A program made the position numbers and the translations under genes. From Prevotellaceae bacterium (GTDB lineage Bacteria > Bacteroidota > Bacteroidia > Bacteroidales > Bacteroidaceae), in assembly GCA_031262085.1 (NCBI GenBank), contig JAISIN010000043.1, positions 1-55,553 on the forward strand: a stretch of DNA of 55,553 nucleotides, written 5' to 3'. Positions 964 through 12,215 of this stretch are shown here, one piece after another (within the stretch, counting starts at the first letter, position 1; the number at the start of each line of letters is the position of its first letter). The notes below the pieces were generated by a model. It worked only from the letters and a program-made list of their open reading frames with translations. It was not told the origin of the DNA and ran no database searches.

Positions 964-2043
964 ATGAAACAGAACAACTTCTTTAGAATCTTCGCTTTCG
1001 TGGCATTTCTCCTATTGTTAGGAGTAAGTTGCTGGGCGACTGTCGAGTCTTTACATCTGCTGTTACCCTCGTGGCCCATCATCTTGTTTTGGGCAGTCAC
1101 TATCATATTCTTTGTCGTAGCCTCTATGGGGTCTACATTGATAGTGAATAGCTTTAATCAGAAGATTAGAGTGGATAATCGTGGCTGGGCATTGATTGGT
1201 GGCATCATCTTGATACTTGCTTTCTGGCTCTGTTTTTCATTGCCAACAAATACGCACACCTTCTTTTATCGTGCGGCAGTTAAAGATGTACTAATCCGTG
1301 ACCTAACAGAAACGAAAGGCAAGCTGCAAGATTTGGCGAATGATGGCGAAGCCGGCAAGATCATAGCGCAAGAGAAAGCGGATTTCCAAAACAAAATAGA
1401 TGCCATCTTTTCAAAGTTTGCCGCCGAAATCAACAATCCTGGCAATCCCGGTTGGGCAGACAAAGCCGAAGCTGTTATTATAGAGCTGGAGGGTGAACTT
1501 GGTACAATTCAACGTCTAAAGCTTAAATGCAACAGCTTTCAGTGTCGGCAAGAATTGATTCAAGCCATGCGCAAGCAAGTTGATAACCTGATGGAATCCA
1601 AATTGAGCACTGTGTATAAAACCCGGTTGGAAAATATCAATCGTGGGTTGGATAAACCGGCTATCAATAAGTTAATTACTCAAATACAGAAAGTGCAAGA
1701 TAAGATTGAAAACAACCCTAACAACAATGACGAACCGACCGTTGAGACGACCAATACGCTATCGCAAGCCTACAAAATCATCGAAAAGTACAGCGATGTA
1801 CTTATCAGCAATTTTGATCGGGATTACCTCGCTATGACCAAAATAGCCAAAGAAGATAAGAAAGTGTATGCCGGCGTATCCAAAACAGAGCGTATGCGTA
1901 GCGTAATAGATGTTTGGAAAGATTTCTTCGCCGGGAAATATGCAGGTCGAGGGTTCGTCTTTTGGATAATGATAGCTGCGCTTGTAGATATAGCGGGCTT
2001 TATATTCTTCGGTATTGTATTTGCTAAGAGAAATAATTTCTAA
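964..2043 (+). CDS. Four-helix inner-membrane protein with cytosolic or periplasmic coiled-coil region (first gene of unknown system)
   Basis: I do not recognise this 359-residue family. Three hydrophobic segments lie near the N-terminus (about residues 8-28, 36-58, 74-93) and one at the C-terminus (about 331-353), leaving a middle region of roughly 235 residues that is rich in Lys, Glu and Gln and looks helical or coiled-coil. The middle region has two cysteines in a CNSFQC pattern (about residues 190-195). It is the first gene of a tight, same-strand run, 21 bases before a GTPase-like gene, so it probably forms the membrane base for that protein. It follows the structured RNA and terminator at 637-885. 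The sequence is AT-rich relative to the housekeeping genes further right. No function is assigned. Confidence 0.8.
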   Translation: MKQNNFFRIFAFVAFLLLLGVSCWATVESLHLLLPSWPIILFWAVTIIFFVVASMGSTLIVNSFNQKIRVDNRGWALIGGIILILAFWLCFSLPTNTHTFFYRAAVKDVLIRDLTETKGKLQDLANDGEAGKIIAQEKADFQNKIDAIFSKFAAEINNPGNPGWADKAEAVIIELEGELGTIQRLKLKCNSFQCRQELIQAMRKQVDNLMESKLSTVYKTRLENINRGLDKPAINKLITQIQKVQDKIENNPNNNDEPTVETTNTLSQAYKIIEKYSDVLISNFDRDYLAMTKIAKEDKKVYAGVSKTERMRSVIDVWKDFFAGKYAGRGFVFWIMIAALVDIAGFIFFGIVFAKRNNF

Positions 2044-2064
2044 TAATTTAAGATAACACTAAGT

Positions 2065-2994
2065 ATGGCTGAAAGAAGTAACATAGATGTGGAGGTGGAT
2101 TATAGATCTTCACATTCGACGGTAGGTGGTAGTTCGGTTCAAAATAGTAGGACTACTCGTGATTATGGCTTGACGGAAGAAGAAGAAAATGACGTTAATG
2201 CGATAACAGTTTCAATTACTGACCCATCGCCTGTTGTCGTTTTGTTTGGTGCGGGAGAATCTGGTAAGACGATGACTTTAGTGCGTTTAACCCGATATCT
2301 TTTGAAGAATGGGTATCAAGTGGAACCCGATCGAATTTTTCGACCAAGTAATTCAAAGAGATATCAAGAACGATGTGACACTTTTATAAATAGCGTAAAT
2401 AGTGATTCTGCGCCTGGTCGAACTAATAAATTGAACTTTATGCTGATAAAAGTAATGAATAAGCATGGCGAACCTATTTGTCAAATCTTGGAAGCGCCAG
2501 GTGAACATTATTTTAAGGCAGATGACCCGGAACAAGATTTCCCACCTTACATTAAACGAATCTGTAACATTAACAATCCAAAGACTTGGGTATTTATTGT
2601 CGAAAAAGACTGGGAAACTCCAGCAACAAGAGCCAACTACACTAATCGAATTTTGGCAATGGAAGGACTTATTGAATCCGAAGATAAGATCATATTTACA
2701 TGTCATAAAGCAGACAAGCATAAGAGTTTATTTTCCGGCGGCGTACCGAATACGACACAATTTTTCAGAGAAATAGAGAATCAATATGCAGGCATTTTTA
2801 GAAAATATCAAAATCAGAACCCCATAACAAGCCTTTTTTATAAGTACAAATTCGATTTTCTGGTTTTCTCTGCAGGTTCATTTAATAAGAAAACAGAACA
2901 GGATGGTGAGACTTACACTCCAGGCAAAGACAAATATCCAGAAAAGTTATGGAGTACTATTCTGAAAAACGTAAAGGGTAGTTGGTTCAAATAA
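2065..2994 (+). CDS. P-loop GTPase-like protein with atypical switch motifs
   Basis: This 309-residue soluble protein has a clear Walker A/G1 motif, GAGESGKT, at residues 62-69, after a beta strand of hydrophobic residues. A G3-like motif, EAPGE (143-147), follows a hydrophobic strand where DxxG is expected, so Asp is replaced by Glu. HKAD at 214-217, after the strand IIFTC, takes the place of the G4 NKxD motif. The order and spacing suggest a TRAFAC-type GTPase, but nucleotide specificity cannot be read from altered motifs. The first 45 residues are polar and probably disordered. It lies between membrane-protein genes with 21- and 24-base gaps, so it is likely the nucleotide-driven switch of the complex. 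It has no visible transmembrane segment. Confidence 0.75.
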   Translation: MAERSNIDVEVDYRSSHSTVGGSSVQNSRTTRDYGLTEEEENDVNAITVSITDPSPVVVLFGAGESGKTMTLVRLTRYLLKNGYQVEPDRIFRPSNSKRYQERCDTFINSVNSDSAPGRTNKLNFMLIKVMNKHGEPICQILEAPGEHYFKADDPEQDFPPYIKRICNINNPKTWVFIVEKDWETPATRANYTNRILAMEGLIESEDKIIFTCHKADKHKSLFSGGVPNTTQFFREIENQYAGIFRKYQNQNPITSLFYKYKFDFLVFSAGSFNKKTEQDGETYTPGKDKYPEKLWSTILKNVKGSWFK

Positions 2995-3018
2995 TCAAAA
3001 GCTGTTAAATAATCAAGT

Positions 3019-4845
3019 ATGAACTTTAAATTTTACATGTTTGGCGGTCCGAAGATATTCGATTTATATCATGGAAATGCAGAAGAATTGGCTTATTTTC
3101 AGCAGTTTGATGACGAAAGCAACAAGGAGAATACGCAACTGACCATTCATCGTAGAACGAATGGTCAGGTTATGTACCTTTATCTTAAACACAATTTTCT
3201 TACATCCACGAATCGCAGAAATGCGTTTTGGGGAATGGCGATAGCGTTCAATAATGAGTATATTGCCGATGTGAACACTTTGTGCTTCTTATTTGATGAA
3301 GTTTACAATAAAATCTTACAAGAAAGGGTGCTGTTTGAAGAGATAAGCGGAAATCCAACTGTACAAGCCAAATTCTTAGTACCACTATTTTCCGATGCTG
3401 AATTTGAAGTAAAACGAATAGAAGATGTCGTTCGTAAAAACATTGAAAAGAATTTCACTAAAGATATTCTTCAGATTGATACATCTTTTCAGGAAGGGCG
3501 AGCAAATGTAGTACGAAGGATGAGCTATCCAGAGAGTCAGTCTGATAGTAATTCTGAGATTATATCTGCACTGCGAGCATATAGATGGGTATCACTATCA
3601 CCTGATTATAAAACAGGTGATAGTGACGATCTTTCAGTTGAGAAAATAAAAGAGCTGAAAGATAATCCAAAGTACATTAAAGATCGCGTGCTTGAAGCAT
3701 TCAAACAAATTGCAATGTCTCGAGAAAACATCACTATAAATGTTGATGAGATTATCGCAAAATATGGGGGCGCTATAAATATCACTTTAACAGAGATAGA
3801 ACCTTATCTTAGTATTCATCCCGATTTGGAGAACACAATGAAAGAGTATAGAACTCTTAAAAGCTACATTAATGATTTAGATAAAGCATGGCGTGAGAAA
3901 CAGGGTGTTCCAAAACCACCTATATTGGATACAACGGTTAGAGATCCAAATGACCCCTATCAGGGAGGCTCAAAAACGCTACCTCCACCTCCCCCTTATG
4001 AAAGGAACAATTGGAAAGGAAAGATTATAGGAGTAGGAGGAGTGATAATCTTATTTGCGATAGTAGGACTGTCGGTACGATTTTGTTCATCGAAAGATAC
4101 GGAAACGCCTACACAAGAACCAACATCTGGCACCACATCAAGCCCCACGCAGACAGTAGTTATGAGTCGTGATGTTATTAAGCAGAAATTGCAAGTAATG
4201 GTAGAAGAAGCGCTGCAACTTTGTAAAGAAGGGGAATATGCTGAATCCGCAAATGCATGGAAAGAATACGGTGCATATCAACAACAGCATGATTCTATAA
4301 AGGGAGATGCTTATAGCTCATGGGGAGTACTTGTAAAAGAGATGGAAAACTATGCAAACATAAAAGAAAACTATGCCTCCCATTATTCTTCTGCACAGAA
4401 TTTTGAAAAACAAAAGAAATATGATGAAGCTATAAAAGAATACAAAATCTGTATAGATTTATTGATTGCTCTCCCAGATTCTCAAATGACAAATAATAAG
4501 AAGGTCTGCAATGAAGCAATAGCTCGTTGTAAAAAAGCCAAAGCGTCCGCGGAATCAACAACTTCCAGTGTAACTATCATGGTTAAACAACGTAATAAAG
4601 ATGTGAAAATGGATAAAGGATATGTTAATGTAACTCCAGGTCAGATCACTGTCTCGGTTAAAAAACCTTTATCTAACGGTAAATGGGAATGCGAAAATCA
4701 GCATATAGTAATAAAAGAACAAAATGAAGAAAAAGCTACACTTCAAGCTGATGGAAATGATTTTTGGACATGTAAGCTGTATTATAAAGTTAATGGTCAG
4801 ACTAAAGAGACGATCAATTTTAAAAGAAAAGAACTAAGTAAGTAA
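3019..4845 (+). CDS. Membrane protein with shared N-terminal domain (copy 1), TPR-like periplasmic region and C-terminal beta domain
   Basis: The 608 residues divide as follows: an N-terminal domain (about 1-150) shared with the proteins at 7204 and 9283; a helical linker; a proline run at about 321-326; one transmembrane segment (about 336-354); then, presumably outside, a Thr/Ser/Pro-rich stretch, two TPR-like helical pairs (about 385-505, including FEKQKKYDEAIKEYK) and a beta-rich end (about 515-608). The shared domain is marked by MNF-x-FY at the start, G72 and Y81 nine residues apart, LFD ending at D93 twelve residues later, and R133 and F146 thirteen apart. With the membrane segment, the shared domain should be cytosolic, beside the GTPase. 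The downstream gene is now separated by an IS630 element. Function unknown. Confidence 0.8.
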   Translation: MNFKFYMFGGPKIFDLYHGNAEELAYFQQFDDESNKENTQLTIHRRTNGQVMYLYLKHNFLTSTNRRNAFWGMAIAFNNEYIADVNTLCFLFDEVYNKILQERVLFEEISGNPTVQAKFLVPLFSDAEFEVKRIEDVVRKNIEKNFTKDILQIDTSFQEGRANVVRRMSYPESQSDSNSEIISALRAYRWVSLSPDYKTGDSDDLSVEKIKELKDNPKYIKDRVLEAFKQIAMSRENITINVDEIIAKYGGAINITLTEIEPYLSIHPDLENTMKEYRTLKSYINDLDKAWREKQGVPKPPILDTTVRDPNDPYQGGSKTLPPPPPYERNNWKGKIIGVGGVIILFAIVGLSVRFCSSKDTETPTQEPTSGTTSSPTQTVVMSRDVIKQKLQVMVEEALQLCKEGEYAESANAWKEYGAYQQQHDSIKGDAYSSWGVLVKEMENYANIKENYASHYSSAQNFEKQKKYDEAIKEYKICIDLLIALPDSQMTNNKKVCNEAIARCKKAKASAESTTSSVTIMVKQRNKDVKMDKGYVNVTPGQITVSVKKPLSNGKWECENQHIVIKEQNEEKATLQADGNDFWTCKLYYKVNGQTKETINFKRKELSK

Positions 4846-4851
4846 TCAAAA

Positions 4852-5487
4852 TTAAGCAGCATTATGCGTATAATGAATAATCGACTGCGTCCCTATTGCA
4901 GCCAGCGCCCTGTTAGTTGTATAGTGCAAGACATCTTGGTTCACATAATCCTGCGGTCTGAGCCATTTTCCTTTCAATATTCTCCAGAGTGTTTCAGCGA
5001 TGTTCAGATGAGGGGAATAGGGTGGCAAATAGAACAGGAACAGTCCTCTCTTCTCCCAAACTTTGCGCAATTCCCTTATCTTCTTGTTTCGATGCACACT
5101 CGCATTGTCAAGGACGACAAACGTTTGCTTCCTTACCTTGAGGGAGAACGCATCAAGGAAGTCAACGACTTCATAGGCAGTGATACTCCCCTTGGTGGTG
5201 AAGCCTTCATACCGGTTGTCTCTGCTAATCATACCGAACAAATTAAGCCTGGTGCTCCTTTGGGAAGGGACAAACACATCTTCTCCCGGCAAATGCCAGC
5301 CATAAGGAACGTACCCTTCGGTACAGATGTGGCTTTCATCAGCATAATAGAGGTCAATAAGACCTTGACAATTCTGCTGTTCAAGTTCTTGCAGCTTCTC
5401 GGACTTATACTCGTAGAGCTGCGGCGAGGGGACTCCCCTTGGGCGTTTTCTTATACGCTTATATCTTGCGCCAATGCGGATAAAAAA
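4852..5487 (-). CDS. IS630-type transposase OrfB (DDE catalytic half), made by -1 frameshift from OrfA
   Basis: In the -1 frame relative to OrfA, the reading continues IRIGARYKRIRKRPRG and carries the three DDE landmarks of the family: YYADES (first Asp), VVLDNASVH (second Asp) and YSPHLNIAETLWRILK (Glu, in the typical SPxLNxIE setting). The frame is open beyond the junction up to 5937, but that upstream part has no resemblance to a transposase; family structure places the real join at 5481-5487. The C-terminus at 4852 may read a few residues past the inverted repeat. All catalytic residues are present, so the element may be active. Confidence 0.8.
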   Translation of the reverse strand, partial: FFIRIGARYKRIRKRPRGVPSPQLYEYKSEKLQELEQQNCQGLIDLYYADESHICTEGYVPYGWHLPGEDVFVPSQRSTRLNLFGMISRDNRYEGFTTKGSITAYEVVDFLDAFSLKVRKQTFVVLDNASVHRNKKIRELRKVWEKRGLFLFYLPPYSPHLNIAETLWRILKGKWLRPQDYVNQDVLHYTTNRALAAIGTQSIIHYTHNAA

Positions 5488-5867
5488 CGTTTGAACGTCA
5501 TATCGCTTGCCTCCTTGCCGGTAGCTTGCTGCCAAGAGGCTTTTACCCTGCTCACACTTTGCCTGTCCTGTTCGATTGCCGCACGAACTGCAGACTCGTC
5601 CGAGGAGTCCATAATGGGCTTCCGACCTCGTCCCGGACGGGTTTGCAGTCCCGCAATACCTTCCGACAGGTATCGCTTTACCCAAGAGTTCACCGATACC
5701 AGACTCATGTCCGTTTGTGCCCCTACTTCTACGGAAGTCAACCCCTCCGCTTTCAGAAGAATGACGCGGCAGCGCATGCGAAAGCAATGGCTCGTACCAC
5801 GGCGGAAACCTTTCTCCAACTCGGCAAGTTGGGATTCCGTCAATTCCAGTTTCTTTATTTGTCCCAT
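5451..5867 (-). CDS. IS630-type transposase OrfA (DNA-binding half)
   Basis: The 138-residue product is the N-terminal helix-turn-helix half of an IS630 transposase: paired helix-turn-helix segments (about residues 35-75, with GLTSVEVGAQTDMSLVSVN), then the linker RPGRGRKP typical of the family and a second winged-helix-like region. It ends shortly after a T TTT TTA heptamer, where a -1 shift joins it to the catalytic half. OrfA alone would bind the terminal repeats but cannot cut DNA. Confidence 0.85.
   Translation of the reverse strand: MGQIKKLELTESQLAELEKGFRRGTSHCFRMRCRVILLKAEGLTSVEVGAQTDMSLVSVNSWVKRYLSEGIAGLQTRPGRGRKPIMDSSDESAVRAAIEQDRQSVSRVKASWQQATGKEASDMTFKRFLSALAQDISV
5481..5487 (-). 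promoter_or_regulatory. Programmed -1 frameshift heptamer T TTT TTA
   Basis: On the minus strand OrfA reads ...AAA CGT TTT TTA TCC...; the underlying heptamer is T TTT TTA in the correct phase (X XXY YYZ). Slipping back one base gives CGT TTT TTT ATC CGC, which enters the OrfB frame and restores a continuous IS630 transposase. This is the usual way IS elements limit transposase production. Confidence 0.8.
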
Positions 5868-5957
5868 TGATAGACCTTCTTATTTTATGAGAGCACAAAG
5901 AAACGATAATTATCTGATATAAACTAATTATGTACATCTACTTATAATAATATCCGT

Positions 5958-6671
5958 ATGAAAACAAAAGTATTTTTCACAATAGCATTACTTGCGTACA
6001 CATTTGAAATAAGTGCGCAGCAACAAACTTCACAGGTCATTATGGAGTTTAAATCAGTAATGGAAAACGAAGAAACCATCAAAACCAAATTGTTAAACTA
6101 TGGAATTGAAATTCTCGACATTGATTTAACAGATCAGACAGTTGTAATAAGATACATTTCGGACAATAAGTATTTCGGTACTAAGAAAAAGAAAAATGAT
6201 ATGATAAATAAGATAAAGGAAACGATCATTCATATCAATACTAAGCCGCTTAAAGACTATAAGAAAAAGCCAATGGTAGCAGTTCCAGAGAAACTGACTC
6301 CGCTAATAAATCAATATCTTGATATTGATAATGAAAGTATCTTTTCAGATAGTTGTTATGCCAGAATTGCAAACATAGATGTAGCAGAGATTCCTCTACG
6401 GAGTCGATCCTATTTTTTATTGGTGAGGAATATTTATAATCTAAAAAGTCTTGTGCAGACTATCGAAAATAGAATGAAAGAAGATGTGGGTGAAGCCCCT
6501 GAAAGGAACGATTCTATTGAGAGCCAACTTGAAGCTGCTATGAATATCTATGACATAATTAGTAATACTGACCAATGTGTCAAGTCATGTCTTTCGGAAA
6601 GTCAGAATAAGTTTTATCAGGATCTTGTCAAAAAGCTCGATGAACGCAATGGAGAATTCTATAGCAAATGA
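5958..6671 (+). CDS. Secreted protein of unknown function in the GTPase-vWA cluster
   Basis: This 237-residue protein begins with a typical signal peptide (Lys-Thr-Lys, then a hydrophobic stretch to about residue 19, cleavage likely at SAQQQ). The mature part is polar with predicted alternating helices, has a cysteine pair near residues 196-200 (CVKSC), and shows no membrane segment. It is the first gene after the IS630 element, 20-90 bases beyond its end, and before a lipoprotein-like gene. It is therefore likely a periplasmic partner of the membrane proteins. I do not recognise the family. The original spacing to the gene at 3019-4845 would have been short before the insertion. Confidence 0.7.
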   Translation: MKTKVFFTIALLAYTFEISAQQQTSQVIMEFKSVMENEETIKTKLLNYGIEILDIDLTDQTVVIRYISDNKYFGTKKKKNDMINKIKETIIHINTKPLKDYKKKPMVAVPEKLTPLINQYLDIDNESIFSDSCYARIANIDVAEIPLRSRSYFLLVRNIYNLKSLVQTIENRMKEDVGEAPERNDSIESQLEAAMNIYDIISNTDQCVKSCLSESQNKFYQDLVKKLDERNGEFYSK

Positions 6672-6734
6672 TGATAACGCGTAAGAGTATTTTTGTTATA
6701 GCACAAAACCCACATTGACAACTATGGATATTCC

Positions 6735-7199
6735 ATGATCGTGAATACATATATCTCTATATTATCACTCGTATTGTTCTGTCTATCTCTATCTTGTTGT
6801 AGTGGCTGTACAGAACAATCTGATACCTCGTGGGCTGATGTAAGTGATTATGGTGACTATGATACCGATCATAAAAGTGCGACCGGTCATGATTTTGTAG
6901 ATATTTCAGAAATAGGGATCGTTGGTTTTGGTAAGAATAACGCCGTTAACGACGACACGCCATACGTACAATATGCAGACTATAAAGTCAGCATCAATAT
7001 AAATAGAGAGTCTCTACTACGGGTGCCGGAAAAGTATTGGGAATGGAAAAACAATCCCCCAACTTATAGATTAGCGGAGAACGATTGTACAACCTTTGCG
7101 ATGGATATAGCCGACGCAGCGGGTATCTATTACGGTCCAAGATGGTTAATACAGTTTCCTGCTGGCTTTATGCGGGAAATGAGAACATATAATGCTTAA
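6735..7199 (+). CDS. Small lipoprotein-like protein with permuted papain-fold (NlpC/P60-like) motifs
   Basis: This 154-residue protein has a hydrophobic leader ending in a cysteine cluster, LSCCSGC (residues 19-25), which suggests a lipoprotein or membrane-tethered form; the lipobox is not canonical. The mature part has TGHDFVDIS (H52) followed by a GFG strand and, near the end, YRLAENDCTTFAMDI (C118). A His in a G-H-x-F-V strand before a Cys in an N-x-C-T-x-F helix is the order seen in circularly permuted papain-fold hydrolases, including several peptidases and toxins. This suggests a thiol hydrolase acting on peptide or lipid in the periplasm, but substrate is unknown. It overlaps the next reading frame if that starts at 7192. 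An ATG 11 bases upstream is closed by a stop, supporting 6735. Confidence 0.65.
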   Translation: MIVNTYISILSLVLFCLSLSCCSGCTEQSDTSWADVSDYGDYDTDHKSATGHDFVDISEIGIVGFGKNNAVNDDTPYVQYADYKVSININRESLLRVPEKYWEWKNNPPTYRLAENDCTTFAMDIADAAGIYYGPRWLIQFPAGFMREMRTYNA

Positions 7200-7203
7200 T
7201 GAT

Positions 7204-7956
7204 ATGAACTACTCCCACTATATATTCTGTAAAAAAGACAAAGATTTCTCGTGTTATCCAGTTCCAAAAGATTCCCAATTGCAAGATTGGATAACAAGCA
7301 GTTCAAACAGCACACAGTTGATTGAACATATTAGTGATCCTATTGTCTATTATATTTATACAAAAAGAATATCCCCAGATAATGACACCTTTGGCATCTG
7401 CTTAAAGTTTAATAGAACTTATTTCCCAAAGATTAATAACTTTTTTGTACTTCTTGATCGCGCTATAGAAACAGAACTCATACAAGCAGGAAAACTTTTG
7501 TCATTAAATGCTGATGGAAACATTTACTGCATTATAGAAAGCTTCCAGAAAAGTAAAATAGACATAGATAGGTTCTTTCATTTCCTCAAGCAAATAATTA
7601 GGGATAATGATTTTTGTGATTTATCAAAACTCCCCGAAGAGGACAAAAAGCGACTAAGCTATAGCACTATCGGTGAAGCATCTGAATATATAATCAATAG
7701 CATTAGAAAGAGTGGATTTAGCGATACCTCGACTCAAGAAACTAAGACAAGTAACGATGTAACAACAGACAAACCAATAACAAAAAAAAGTCTTCTCACG
7801 TGGTTAGGTTGCTCTGCTATATTGCCGGTCATATCAGTCGTTTTATTCTTTATTATCTTACCCTTTAATTGGTATATTCTGTATGTTATGGTTCCCTTTG
7901 TTTTGATGGGAATATTTGTATCCTATATTTATCGGCATTTGAAAAGGCAGATATGA
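7204..7956 (+). CDS. Membrane protein with shared N-terminal domain (copy 2) and C-terminal transmembrane hairpin
   Basis: I chose the ATG at 7204 over the one at 7192 because it gives MNYSHY, matching MNFKFY and MNFSFY of the paralogues at 3019 and 9283. The 250-residue product has the shared domain at about 1-140 (G64 and Y73 nine apart, D85 twelve later in FVLLD), a polar linker, and two membrane helices (about 198-220 and 222-243) with a basic tail. It lacks the coiled-coil or TPR region of the other two copies and so would present almost nothing outside the membrane. Its stop overlaps the next start (ATGA at 7953-7956), so translation is probably coupled to the vWA gene. Function unknown. 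Confidence 0.75.
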   Translation: MNYSHYIFCKKDKDFSCYPVPKDSQLQDWITSSSNSTQLIEHISDPIVYYIYTKRISPDNDTFGICLKFNRTYFPKINNFFVLLDRAIETELIQAGKLLSLNADGNIYCIIESFQKSKIDIDRFFHFLKQIIRDNDFCDLSKLPEEDKKRLSYSTIGEASEYIINSIRKSGFSDTSTQETKTSNDVTTDKPITKKSLLTWLGCSAILPVISVVLFFIILPFNWYILYVMVPFVLMGIFVSYIYRHLKRQI

Positions 7957-9275
7957 AAGATGAAGCGACAAAAAAAGGGATAGGACGTAAAACAGAGTGG
8001 CTAATTCGCAAGTCAAAAAAAGATCCATTTTCTGTTTTAGGCATATTCATCGCGATTGCCGGTATTGCTTTCTCATCCATTCTGGACATATTGTCTCAGG
8101 GAGATAGTATCTCAAAATCAATAGATGTTCTATACAGCAAAAGCATTAAAGTAAAGTGGGGAGATTTAATTGCAAAAAAAGATGGGGATGCCAATAAGGT
8201 AAATATTATTTTTATTGTTGATAACTCAGGCTCGACAAACTATAATATAACAGATCAATCATTGCTCGAGAATATTAACATGGCTATGAATGATGCACAA
8301 CTCTTAGATATTAGCCATACTGATAAAGGTTATCAGTGTGAACCCCTATACTCTGAAGTTGTACGAGCACAATTAATGCTTTTGCTTAACAAAATAATGA
8401 ATGATTCAATAAATGGTACATACGAGATAAAAGCATTTTCTAAATATGCAACATCTATAGATAAAAAGGATATAAAATCTCTAAGTAAGGAGAATATCAA
8501 AAAAATAGTTAATTCCTTAACATTTGAAGGGGTAAAAACGGATTTTGTAACGAGTCTAAAAAATATAGTAGATGAATACAAAAACGCATCAGACAAAGAG
8601 ATTTATACTTTCATTTTTCTAAGTGATTTTGTTCACGAATTTGATGATATGAATAAAAAGAATGACGACATTGCTAGTATAACAGGCGCACTTAAGATGA
8701 TGAGAGAGAAATCCGTATTTTCAAATATTTATATTGATACTGTATTAATAAAAGAGCGGAAAAGTAAAGATTTGAATAAAAAGCTTTTCGTCGACGAACT
8801 TTTTGAGAAAGTAATTCAATTAGAGTTTAAAAAAATAAGTTTCTTAGATCATGGATTTTCTGTTGATTATCATATTAGTACACACCCATTGCGTTTCTAT
8901 TTTTCATCACACATGAATGATTCTACCACAATACACATAACTAATCTACCTAAATCCACTCACATAGGTGTGAAGAAGCATAAAGGCGAAGATAGCAGAC
9001 AAAAATTTTCTGTGGGAGGAAAACCATTATACGATAGCGAACCATACGAGCATTTTAACGACGATATATTGGATGTGACCATAACAGGACACATACCGGA
9101 ACAATATCCATTTGCAGAGTTGACTATAAGAAATGATAATAACAACCTTGATTACAATTTTGAAATTATATTTTTCAAGAGAATACCAGAACCTTTCCGA
9201 TGGATTATTCCACTATATATCTGTGTATTATGTTGTTATTTAGCACTATTATTTGCGCCATTAAAAAACAGGTAA
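7953..9275 (+). CDS. von Willebrand factor A domain protein anchored by N- and C-terminal membrane helices
   Basis: The start at 7953 overlaps the preceding stop as ATGA; an upstream in-frame ATG at 7869 would read through the preceding gene and is less likely. The 440-residue protein has a transmembrane segment at about 27-45, a vWA domain from about 80 to 290, and a second transmembrane segment near the C-terminus (about 417-435). The MIDAS is complete: D90-N-S92-G-S94, a Thr in KTDF (T196) and the Asp of FLSDF (D225). The region between the vWA domain and the last helix looks beta-rich. A metal-binding vWA domain outside the membrane would act as an adhesion or assembly module. It lies 7 bases before the third paralogue gene. 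Confidence 0.85.
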   Translation: MKDEATKKGIGRKTEWLIRKSKKDPFSVLGIFIAIAGIAFSSILDILSQGDSISKSIDVLYSKSIKVKWGDLIAKKDGDANKVNIIFIVDNSGSTNYNITDQSLLENINMAMNDAQLLDISHTDKGYQCEPLYSEVVRAQLMLLLNKIMNDSINGTYEIKAFSKYATSIDKKDIKSLSKENIKKIVNSLTFEGVKTDFVTSLKNIVDEYKNASDKEIYTFIFLSDFVHEFDDMNKKNDDIASITGALKMMREKSVFSNIYIDTVLIKERKSKDLNKKLFVDELFEKVIQLEFKKISFLDHGFSVDYHISTHPLRFYFSSHMNDSTTIHITNLPKSTHIGVKKHKGEDSRQKFSVGGKPLYDSEPYEHFNDDILDVTITGHIPEQYPFAELTIRNDNNNLDYNFEIIFFKRIPEPFRWIIPLYICVLCCYLALLFAPLKNR

Positions 9276-9282
9276 TCTCAAT

Positions 9283-10896
9283 ATGAACTTCAGTTTCTAC
9301 ATTTACGGCACCCCTAACGGCTATAATCAATGCCCAGCCGATGGCAATGGTACATTTCTTCAAGAGTGTGCGATAGAAAATTCTGTAGAATCACAACTCA
9401 CCATTCTTCGTAAGGAACAATTGGTGTACTATGCTTATCGCCGCAAATTGCAAGAAAAATCGGGTAACTACCTTGGTTTTTGTTTGGTATTCAATGGTAT
9501 CTATTGTACGGATACAAAGAAGCTATTTGTACTTTTCGATCACGTCTTTGATGACGTTTTAATGAAAGGGGATTTCTTGCGGTTTGAAAAGGGGAAAGCC
9601 ATTTTTGTTATCAATAAGTTTACCGAGAAGCCCATCGAACTTGAACGTATTCAGAATGTATTCAAGCGTGACTTGGAGAATAATTTTAATCGTAGTTTTT
9701 CCTCTATTCCTATTTCATTTAAACATGATGGCGGAAAGAAAACGGTTTTAGTAAAAGATGCAAATGAAAGCATCAATTCTGCTATTGCCAATTTTAATTG
9801 CGTACATATCACCAATAATGAAGTAACGCCATCTGAATTGGAACGTATGAATAAGATGATAAATCGTTTAGATATAGAAAAACAAGAGTTGGAGAGAAAA
9901 TACCAGAAGGTTTTCGCCCAAAAGAAGCAATACAAAATTGTCACATTATTACTCTTACTGCTTATTATGGGAGGTTTCATATTTTATAAAGTTCTTTCAG
10001 ACAAAAACAAAAATATAGAATCGCAAGCAAATGATATTAGCACACTTCACCAAGCAAATGACGCATTGCAAAATACGATAAATAGACAGCATGGTCATAT
10101 TGATTCTATTCAGGTTTTATACAAGAATATGGAAGGTAAATATAATACGTCTCTTTCAAATTATGCGACACTTGAAAATAAATATGATACTGTACGTAAT
10201 GAACTGGAGGAGGTAAAGCGAAAATACGAATCAGCCCGTCAATCACAGGCAGAAATAGAGCAGAAGTATGAGGCACTTTGCCGAGAGAATAACAATCTTG
10301 AAAGAGAGTATAATTTATTTAAGAGTTCAATTCTTTCAAATTATGCGACACTTGAAAATAAATATGATACTGTACGTAATGAACTGGAGGAGGTAAAGCG
10401 AAAATACGAATCAGCCCGTCAATCACAGGCAGAAATAGGGCGGAAGTATGAGGCGCTTCGCCGAGAGAATAACCATCTTGAAAGAGATTATAATTCATTC
10501 AAGAATTCAATAGCAAATGTATTTCCTATTATTATAACTGACGTTCAAATGGCAAATGTTGATTATGAGGGTAATATATTAACAGATTATGGGAAAAACA
10601 TTTATAGCAGAAATACAATGTATTTAGAGCCTAAAATATTTTATACGGGTTTGGTGCATAAAGCGATTACATTAAATGTAAAATTATTCAAGCCTAATGG
10701 ATCGTTGAGTACTGGAAATTCATCGCCGCCAGGCTATAGCTTTTCTCGTAATAGTACGTTTCGGACAGGGAAAGATAGTTTGACATTATCCGGATGGGGT
10801 GGAAACGACAAAGGGCATTGGTCGAAAGGCAATTATAGAATAGAATTTTGGTATGGAGACATTTGCATAAGTAGTCACAAATTCACAATATATTGA
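9283..10896 (+). CDS. Membrane protein with shared N-terminal domain (copy 3), duplicated coiled coil and C-terminal beta-sandwich-like domain
   Basis: The 537 residues contain the shared N-terminal domain (about 1-150; G65/Y74, D86 in LFVLFD, R122/F135), a short coiled coil (about 185-215), one membrane helix (about 219-237), a long coiled coil (about 240-410) and a C-terminal domain of about 125 residues rich in aromatic strands, ending in GHWSKGNYRIEFWYGD and a FTIY tail. The coiled coil contains a 60-residue tandem duplication (residues 291-350 and 351-410). The C-terminal ending resembles beta domains seen at the ends of other Bacteroidetes surface or stress proteins, by my recollection only. 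It is the last gene of the cluster. Function unknown; topology matches the 608-residue copy 1. Confidence 0.8.
   Translation: MNFSFYIYGTPNGYNQCPADGNGTFLQECAIENSVESQLTILRKEQLVYYAYRRKLQEKSGNYLGFCLVFNGIYCTDTKKLFVLFDHVFDDVLMKGDFLRFEKGKAIFVINKFTEKPIELERIQNVFKRDLENNFNRSFSSIPISFKHDGGKKTVLVKDANESINSAIANFNCVHITNNEVTPSELERMNKMINRLDIEKQELERKYQKVFAQKKQYKIVTLLLLLLIMGGFIFYKVLSDKNKNIESQANDISTLHQANDALQNTINRQHGHIDSIQVLYKNMEGKYNTSLSNYATLENKYDTVRNELEEVKRKYESARQSQAEIEQKYEALCRENNNLEREYNLFKSSILSNYATLENKYDTVRNELEEVKRKYESARQSQAEIGRKYEALRRENNHLERDYNSFKNSIANVFPIIITDVQMANVDYEGNILTDYGKNIYSRNTMYLEPKIFYTGLVHKAITLNVKLFKPNGSLSTGNSSPPGYSFSRNSTFRTGKDSLTLSGWGGNDKGHWSKGNYRIEFWYGDICISSHKFTIY
10152..10511 (+). repeat. 180-bp in-frame tandem duplication within a coiled-coil gene
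   Basis: Two direct copies, 10152-10331 and 10332-10511, each encode 60 residues of heptad-rich sequence beginning LSNYATLENKYDTV. The first about 108 bases are identical, while the last about 70 differ at roughly ten positions. Copy number could change coiled-coil length without shifting frame. Confidence 0.9.
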
Positions 10897-11090: not shown

Positions 11091-12215
11091 ATGATGGAAG
11101 CTCTCAGAAAATTGCCGATAGGCATACAAAGTTTTGAAAAAATACGTACCGGAAACTATCTGTACGTCGACAAAACCGCTTATGTATATAAGCTGGCTTT
11201 GCTTGAAACGCCCTATTTCCTAAGTCGTCCACGCCGCTTCGGGAAGAGTTTGTTTCTCTCTACCCTGAAAGCTTATTTTCAAGGGAAGAAAGAACTCTTC
11301 GAGGGTTTAATCATTGCCAAATTAGAAAAAGATTGGTTCGAGTATCCGGTATTTCATTTGGATATGAATGTTGACAAAACGATTGACATGCTATCTTTCA
11401 TAAGTATATTGGATACCAATCTTCGGGATTTAGAGGAAGTGTGGAGTAAAGATCCGGCAGAAGAGACACCCGCCGCTCGTCTGAAAGGCTTAATCAAACG
11501 TGCGCACGAGCAGACCGGTCGTAAGGTTGTAGTGCTTATCGACGAATACGACAAGCCTTTATTGGATACGATTGATAAGAAAGAGCTGCATGAACAGATC
11601 TATGCACAATTGGGCGGATTCTATGCCATGTTGAAATCTGCCGACGAGCACTTGAAGTTTCTCTTCCTCACCGGCATCACCAAGTTTGCCCAACTCAACG
11701 TATTCAGTCAATTAAACCAATTGGATGACATTAGCCTGCAAGACCCCTACGCCGGCATCTGCGGCATTACCGAAGAGGAATTGCTACACAACTTCCAACC
11801 CGAACTGCATGCGTTGGCAGAAAACAACGGACAAACCTACGAGGAAGCCGTCGACGAAATGAAAAAGCGATACGACGGCTACCATTTTGCGCGCAAAAGC
11901 CCGGATATATATAATCCCTTCAGCGTGTTGAATGTGTTGAACACAAAAGTCTATCGCGATTATTGGTTCAAAACCGGAACGCCCACCGCACTGGTCAAAC
12001 TTGTCAAGAAGCAGGGACTTCCCGCCTCCTATATCGAATGTGGCGTTCGGGCACGCGAAAGCGATATCGAAGAGTTTCGCGTCGGGCAAGACGATTTGGT
12101 GCCTTTTTTGTATCAAAGCGGCTACCTCACTATCAAGGAATACAAAAAGGAATTCGATACATATGTGCTCGGTTTTCCCAACGAAGAGGTAGCGTATGGA
12201 TGCCGTTTTGTCTAA
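11091..12215 (+). pseudogene. C-terminally truncated AAA-ATPase-like/PD-(D/E)XK (DUF1703-type) protein
   Basis: The 374 residues match the N-terminal AAA-ATPase-like domain of a family that is very common in Bacteroidales: LPIGIQSFEKIR at the start, a Walker A variant RRFGKSLFLST, Walker B VVVLIDEYDKPLLD and a FLFLTGITKFAQ strand. Full members are about 510-530 residues and end in a PD-(D/E)XK nuclease domain. Here the frame stops soon after LGFPNEEVAYG, where the nuclease domain should begin, so about 140 residues are missing and unrelated sequence follows. The ATPase part may still be made. A second initiator ATG lies three bases after the first. The gene converges on the pgpH-like gene and marks the right edge of the island. 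Confidence 0.8.

Follow-up and report, generated by a model that had tools for sequence, protein, structure and literature searches.

The 55,553-nucleotide contig JAISIN010000043.1 of a Prevotellaceae bacterium (assembly GCA_031262085.1; hereafter the window) carries eight open reading frames (ORFs), here called A to H, that lie on the forward strand between positions 964 and 10896 and encode what we propose, at a probability of roughly 50%, to be a GTP-dependent switch in which longin-fold proteins anchored in the membrane relay the signal to an envelope lipoprotein, an exchangeable hydrolase. That the set is a real, conserved and unnamed module we hold with high confidence, both for the fold of its shared domain and for the operon; our confidence in the switch mechanism as such is moderate. 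A first-pass annotation had described the region as eight same-strand genes belonging to no named system, and both statements hold: all eight ORFs are present, none of the eight proteins passes the curated cut-offs of Pfam or NCBIfam, PADLOC returned weak matches only (mad8 covers just the P-loop region, residues 37–126, of B at 20.6 bits, and C and D have one weak match each), and a search of open PMC papers, with subscription papers and preprints outside it, found the gene set described nowhere. The same annotation gave the spacing of the genes as 0–30 bases apart from one insertion sequence (IS), which is accurate except between D and E: the gaps in order from A to H are 21, 24, 1112 (the IS630-like element), 63, -8, -4 and 7 bases.

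A GTPase and membrane protein core

By its motifs, B (2065..2994, + strand) is a TRAFAC-like GTPase. The first-pass label of a P-loop GTPase-like protein is borne out by an alignment of 32 rows (the window protein and 31 relatives), in which the key residues of G1 (FGAGESGKT), switch II (LEAPGEHYF, with G3 as APGEH), G4 (CHKAD) and G5 (FSAG) are invariant or nearly so. RagA, too, has G4 in an HKxD form. The residue after the switch-II Gly is Glu rather than Gln (E143 and G146 are invariant and E147 is kept in at least 90% of the rows), and a Glu at this place is likewise invariant in the eight DO-GTPase1 and eight DO-GTPase2 rows that we compared. TRAFAC-type families of Pfam match the 32 rows weakly (G-alpha in 7 rows, best 6.9e-6; SRPRB in 5; Gtr1_RagA in 2, best 0.023; DO-GTPase1 in 2, best 0.043), general P-loop families match as well (e.g., AAA_22 in 18), and the B profile searched against PDB sequences retrieved P-loops of the signal recognition particle (SRP) type together with one 6-phosphofructo-2-kinase.

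At E<=0.001 the family of B comprises 557 proteins, B itself counted, and the gene is present in 4 of 393 genomes of the order (the window's own genome counted), which represent four different genera. Besides the window we compared 46 loci, 43 from one scan of genome contigs and three from the search of the order. A directly precedes B in all 45 of these loci in which B was called (in the remaining one, L019, the simple ORF caller called neither gene, though tblastn found B there), a recurrence that excludes chance for the A–B core. The gene after B carries the domain shared by C, F and H in 42 of 46 loci, window included; the four misses are a spurious antisense ORF in L010 and, as judged by eye, divergent versions in L008, L027 and L050. 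At least two copies of this domain are found in 31 of the 34 loci that have at least 5 kb after B (again with the window), and each of the four genomes with B in the order set has shared-domain genes (G246 of that set adds a single weak match, to a coiled-coil protein). Co-location of homologues in other genomes, put forward in the first-pass annotation for the whole set, is therefore a property of the core and does not extend to G, of which no relative was found in the other loci. Carriers of the set include strains of Bacteroides fragilis and Parabacteroides distasonis; four short contigs that were binned as Bacillota or Verrucomicrobiota (L012, L033, L042 and L047) carry it too and are perhaps misbinned Bacteroidota. 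Two adjacent genes at L055 24-2311, weak matches to the profiles of B (3e-6) and A (6.9e-5), are perhaps a divergent relative.

A (964..2043, + strand) is the four-helix membrane protein that had been described, with hydropathy placing helices at residues 9-27, 39-57, 75-93 and 335-353 and leaving ~240 residues between the third and the fourth. Nine residues do not vary in any of the 45 or 46 rows (window included) that have a letter at the position: S22 and T26 in helix 1 with S29 immediately behind it, W88 and S92 in helix 3 with T95, N96 and H98 close outside it, and D342 in helix 4. Polar residues conserved this strictly in a membrane protein point to a path for ions or to a centre of catalysis or assembly.

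The shared longin domain

The three paralogous membrane proteins recognized at first pass are C, F and H: phmmer with H in a set of 658 ORFs finds C at 1e-12 and F at 6e-11, and a domain hidden Markov model (HMM) trained with H and F, with C left out of the training, scores C at 1.5e-20 (hmmsearch). In C (3019..4845, + strand) the N-terminal domain spans about residues 1-195 and is followed by one transmembrane (TM) helix at 335-353 and by a C-terminal region, predicted to lie outside the inner membrane, with a weak TPR-like signal (Pfam MIT/TPR, below cut-off). F (7192..7956, + strand) consists of the domain and two C-terminal hydrophobic stretches (205-223 by hydropathy, the second by eye). 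H (9283..10896, + strand) has the domain at 1-180, a TM helix at 219-237, a long coiled coil, which draws many chance coiled-coil matches in family scans, and a C-terminal Ig-like beta sandwich at about 415-537. An in-frame 180-base tandem duplication at 10152-10511 (95% matches) adds 60 residues to the coiled coil.

Because a fold search with full-length H was filled by its Ig-like domain, the N-terminal domain was modelled alone, the domain model being built with 55 of the 60 listed copies. The AlphaFold model of H 1-182, which has a predicted local distance difference test score (pLDDT) of 94.9, presents strands (E) and helices (H) in the order E3-9 E15-17 H23-31 E37-44 E47-55 E63-71 H78-95 ... 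H117-134, the topology of a longin (b1-b2-a1-b3-b4-b5-a2-a3). Its structure match to known longins covers most of the domain, with Lst4 and the FLCN/FNIP complex among the top three; MglB chains are absent from the structure-match rows listed, which excludes nothing. The structure prediction that the first-pass annotation had proposed for these proteins thus yields a fold, and we conclude with high confidence that the shared N-terminal domain of C, F and H is, as modelled, an unpermuted longin followed by hydrophobic helices. A different identity, GAP1-N1, had been considered from a likeness seen by eye and was rejected after hhalign, HMM and global hhalign comparisons: the longin domain aligned with nine GAP1-N1 rows at E 0.79, the GAP1-N1 HMM scored no longin protein better than E 0.85, and Pfam GAP1-N matched none of C, F and H (GAP1-N2 was compared through Pfam only). 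PF20012 is so scarce in the genome sets (0 of 198 genomes in the order set and 3 of 395 in the phylum set) that the GAP1 rows were drawn from plasmid records.

Longins bind Rag, Rab and Arf-type GTPases, and the pairing of longin with GTPase is characteristic of membrane control in eukaryotes and Asgard archaea; in bacteria the familiar counterpart is the permuted roadblock (MglB). By analogy, we infer that the longin domains of the gene set would be cytosolic and would bind B, so that the contact between shared domains and GTPase suggested at first pass is plausible. The set resembles MglA/MglB in that a bacterial GTPase is expected to have a regulator from the longin/roadblock superfamily as its partner. 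It differs in two ways: this partner is a longin without permutation, joined to TM helices and to domains on the outside, and a membrane protein and a hydrolase are co-encoded. It likewise shares the combination of longin domain and GTPase with the Rag GTPases and FLCN/FNIP (Lst4/Lst7), with GATOR1, and with the SRP receptor SRX-SRbeta, but those systems are eukaryotic and not coupled to an outside hydrolase, and B is not assigned to Rag by sequence. Roadblock and longin are described as related by circular permutation in a passage of PMC3521125, and one of PMC4917890 counts 41 longins in Lokiarchaeum.

The exchangeable enzyme slot

E (6735..7199, + strand), which occupies a position directly before F that we call the hydrolase slot, is a lipoprotein with a likely permuted papain-like domain (NlpC/P60, Lnb_N). 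The papain-like fold proposed at first pass is supported through a relative, P0122, that is 69% identical over 74% and carries PF13387, whereas E itself stays below the curated cut-off of Pfam Lnb_N (16.9 bits against 22.2; 0.0049). As in the permuted NlpC/P60 enzymes of the Lnb/DUF4105 type, His precedes Cys: a GH before a DC, read by eye as TGH ... DCTTF, is kept in P0121-P0123. E differs from these enzymes as a small lipoprotein tied to a GTPase cluster. Lnb is the Bacteroides lipoprotein N-acyltransferase, and DUF4105/Lnb-type enzymes act on lipids or lipoproteins, according to passages of PMC12994826, so E may be a lipid-acting enzyme and not a peptidase.

Other loci hold other enzymes in the slot. 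A lipoprotein with a retropepsin-like aspartic protease domain (clan AA) is found in 34 loci; the catalytic Asp is kept in 34/34, the Gly and the N-terminal Cys in 33/34 each and a lipobox pattern in 28/34, YDTG was read by eye in nine, and the slot protease of L011, the only one scanned, matches PF13975 (gag-asp_proteas) at 46.9 bits against a cut-off of 28.2. Among the 33 long loci other than the window, 26 have a lipoprotein protease, and its gene immediately precedes a shared-domain gene every time (26/26). The locus most closely related to the window, L009, encodes in its slot a subtilisin-like lipoprotein with a fervidolysin-type prodomain (8e-8) and D, H and GTS motifs seen by eye. The first 48 residues of E match the leaders of the aspartic protease of L013 (9.2e-6) and of this subtilisin-like protein (7.5e-5) among the 658 ORFs, and in P0123, another relative of E, the same domain stands behind a region homologous to the slot protein of L010 (BLASTP 6e-13). 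A tree of the GTPase (45 rows) groups the window with L009 and L010 (98/93), beside two aspartic-protease loci (96/96), which suggests that the slot enzyme has been replaced under a conserved core. From these comparisons, E is likely to be one of several interchangeable hydrolases, of aspartic protease, subtilisin-like and permuted NlpC/P60-like type.

D (5958..6671, + strand) has a signal peptide by eye, in agreement with its first-pass description as a secreted protein. It matches proteins of L010 (1e-6) and L015 (7.7e-5) by phmmer, groups by eye with those of L009, L011, L014, L021 and L045, and an HMM of this group reaches L017, L022, L026, L028 and L043; D is, as far as such homology searches indicate, conserved in a subclade around the window.

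A proposed switch across the membrane and its alternatives

In the mechanism that we propose, a cytosolic cue would set the nucleotide state of B, which would dock on the cytosolic longin domains; GTP loading or hydrolysis would then alter the assembly of the longin proteins and A. By way of A and the TM helices the change would reach the outside portions of C (TPR-like) and H (coiled coil and Ig-like), and these domains would free or activate the slot lipoprotein hydrolase to act on envelope proteins or lipids, with F and G (longin and vWA) as an optional receptor or adhesion arm. Signalling from the inside out, from cytosolic GTPase to outside enzyme, is somewhat favoured over the reverse direction. 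The envelope-spanning, nucleotide-switched machine with an outside hydrolase imagined at first pass is retained as likely, save that the vWA protein and F are accessory to it and not part of its core.

Several observations weigh against this proposal. Foldseek alone gave the longin model 0 matches at E<=0.001, and a sequence match to a longin is absent among the Pfam matches listed and among PDB sequences up to E 1. The side on which the longin domains lie is judged from basic residues that precede the helix in F and H; C, with two before and two after, has no bias. Orphan H-like longin genes occur in two genomes of the order set, G211 and G357, in which B was not found. As regards the slot, seven of the 33 long loci are without an aspartic-protease lipoprotein: two are of subtilisin type (L009 and L021), L010 has an unrecognised slot protein, and four (L023, L025, L037 and L040) have no recognised slot enzyme. 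Pfam Peptidase_S8 does not match the slot protein of L009, of which only the prodomain is recognised; the subtilisin-type lipoprotein of L021 clusters with it (PF00082, 22.7 bits against 21.8) and is placed after H, not before. The leader likeness of E includes a hydrophobic signal peptide and its E-values are modest, and E, whose activity is judged from a distant family that it matches below cut-off, might transfer acyl groups or hydrolyse lipids instead of cleaving peptides.

Envelope upkeep is a doubtful but serious alternative: the switch would control local processing of envelope proteins or lipids in growth or stress, C and H would act as outside sensors (outside-in signalling), and the set would have no role in conflict. 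The receptor-like layout of C and H fits this, as do the strong conservation of A with its polar membrane residues and the varied chromosomal neighbourhoods, but both the patchy occurrence (4/393) and the exchange of domains in the enzyme slot would be unusual for upkeep functions.

The first-pass annotation had raised defence or inter-bacterial conflict as a possibility, a question of purpose that is compatible with the switch mechanism. The GTPase would sense an invader or damage in the cytosol and the envelope hydrolase would harm the cell's own envelope (defence or abortive infection), much as in the systems centred on GTPases that Kaur et al. 2020 describe, except that the effectors would lie beyond the inner membrane. 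Exchangeable effector domains and occurrence in 4/393 order genomes are what such a system might show; the switch-II Glu is common to B and the DO-GTPases, peptidase effectors are reported for GAP1-N1 systems in passages of PMC7159879, and the permuted NlpC/P60 relatives mentioned in PMC12994826 include a lipid-attacking toxin. Some of the 124 flank proteins also match PADLOC models; two, for instance, match PDC-S01 and two a PN-superfamily effector. These matches are scattered, however: the 124 flank proteins (136 selected, from loci up to L039) matched 48 PADLOC families, each in at most two, in counts made without a background comparison, and 161 Pfam families, each in at most three and varied in kind (among those listed, the mobile-element types DUF5906 in 3 and VapE-like in 2), and the test for proximity to defence islands proposed at first pass showed no theme in the flanks. 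Nor was there any match in 72,556 plasmid records and 50,697 phage records; IMG/VR gave one. A role in defence is therefore not supported and we consider it unlikely.

The relation to the systems of Kaur et al. can also be framed as descent, the gene set being a diverged member of the DO-GTPase/GAP1 family of systems. According to passages of that paper (PMC7159879), DO-GTPases with a Walker B Glu are accompanied there by GAP1, GASH or FNIII proteins and by effectors that vary, peptidases among them. The likeness is considerable: a GTPase of TRAFAC type whose Walker B/switch II region has a conserved Glu (possibly the residue meant in the paper), a downstream partner gene, TM components, and exchangeable effectors including peptidases, with three types of slot enzyme across the relatives. 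Aligned by hhalign with eight DO-GTPase2 rows, B matches over 195 columns, in which the motifs G1, G3 and G4 line up (P 0.0012, against 0.11 for the longin profile as a negative control), yet the probability is 20%, and the alignment with DO-GTPase1 covers only the P-loop region (51 columns, probability 19%, P 0.0013). Pfam DO-GTPase1/2 does not reach cut-off for B, the GAP1-N1 comparisons were negative, and Pfam and NCBIfam scans of all eight proteins detected no GAP1-N, GASH or FNIII domain; the partner is instead a longin fold with TM helices, and the enzyme a lipoprotein rather than a cytosolic effector. We thus regard descent from these systems as improbable, and the gene set as one that is predicted to work like them without being classed as a member. 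A distant look-alike, L068 (3-8260), may bridge the two: it encodes a TM subtilase (PF00082, 4.5e-48), a TM coiled-coil-type protein that is A-like by eye, a GTPase that exceeds the cut-off of DO-GTPase1 (32.4 bits) and a further protein whose start is longin-like by eye, and the longin HMM has no hit to it among the matches listed. TagF is a regulator of type VI secretion (T6SS); the gene set is unlike it in that the Pfam scan of the eight proteins found no T6SS family.

Finally, a nucleotide-gated ion or proton pathway, with A as the working part gated by B and the longins and the lipoprotein secondary, would account for the residues kept in A (D342 in 45/45 and the others in all rows with a letter there) and for its place directly before B in 45/45 loci, but it is distinctly improbable, as it draws on a residue pattern alone and the A profile has no useful match to PDB sequences (best E 0.05, to a four-helix bundle).

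A bolder reading of the switch, which we consider less likely than not, is a categorically new bacterial signalling machine. Transmembrane receptors with the longin fold, which in eukaryotes controls Rag, Rab and Arf GTPases, would relay the state of a G protein in the cytosol through the inner membrane and set off interchangeable envelope proteases or lipid-cutting enzymes. The set would then be a G-protein-coupled envelope switch of bacteria, possibly kin to the source of the longin–GTPase pairing. A bacterial operon in which a G protein and tethered longins regularly occur together would open the origin of that pairing to direct tests, and would show a cytosolic nucleotide switch commanding enzymes outside the membrane. 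The exchangeable slot would also be a source of new envelope proteases and lipid-acting enzymes in Bacteroidota.

The remaining gene, G (7953..9275, + strand), is a vWA protein with TM anchors at 26-44 and 417-435, as first described. A search of 5.8 billion proteins found just two relatives of G, and in these and the window protein (3/3 sequences) the residues of the metal ion-dependent adhesion site (MIDAS), D90, S92, S94, T196 and D225, are intact and invariant. G receives no score from Pfam VWA, and the four places in the genome that match PF00092 all lie outside the window. With two relatives only, and none in the other loci, a vWA protein as core component was rejected. One relative, P0125, has by eye an F-like TM pair at its N-terminus, ahead of the vWA protein, which suggests that F and G act together; lying between E and H, they are best read as an added accessory arm.

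Beyond the eight genes, the element between C and D (4846..5957, - strand), which we take to be of the IS630 family, leaves the ORFs of both neighbours intact; its two overlapping minus-strand ORFs suggest a frame-shifted transposase, and the rest of the genome holds only two short fragments of it, both on C38. A 22-base tandem repeat of 5.6 copies lies upstream of A at 190-312, near the contig start, and the gene downstream of H (11091-12215) resembles what we take to be a multi-copy Bacteroidales family of AAA-ATPase-like proteins. In the sister loci L023 (14375-15055) and L025 (5816-6496) a common same-strand gene follows H, that of L023 being a PNP_UDP_1 nucleoside phosphorylase (4e-39), and may be a new effector or plain synteny. 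Orphan H-like longin genes are seen at L092 3344-4678 and L093 4186-5550, where B is not nearby and the adjoining gene encodes a TM protein with, by eye, MORN-like repeats.

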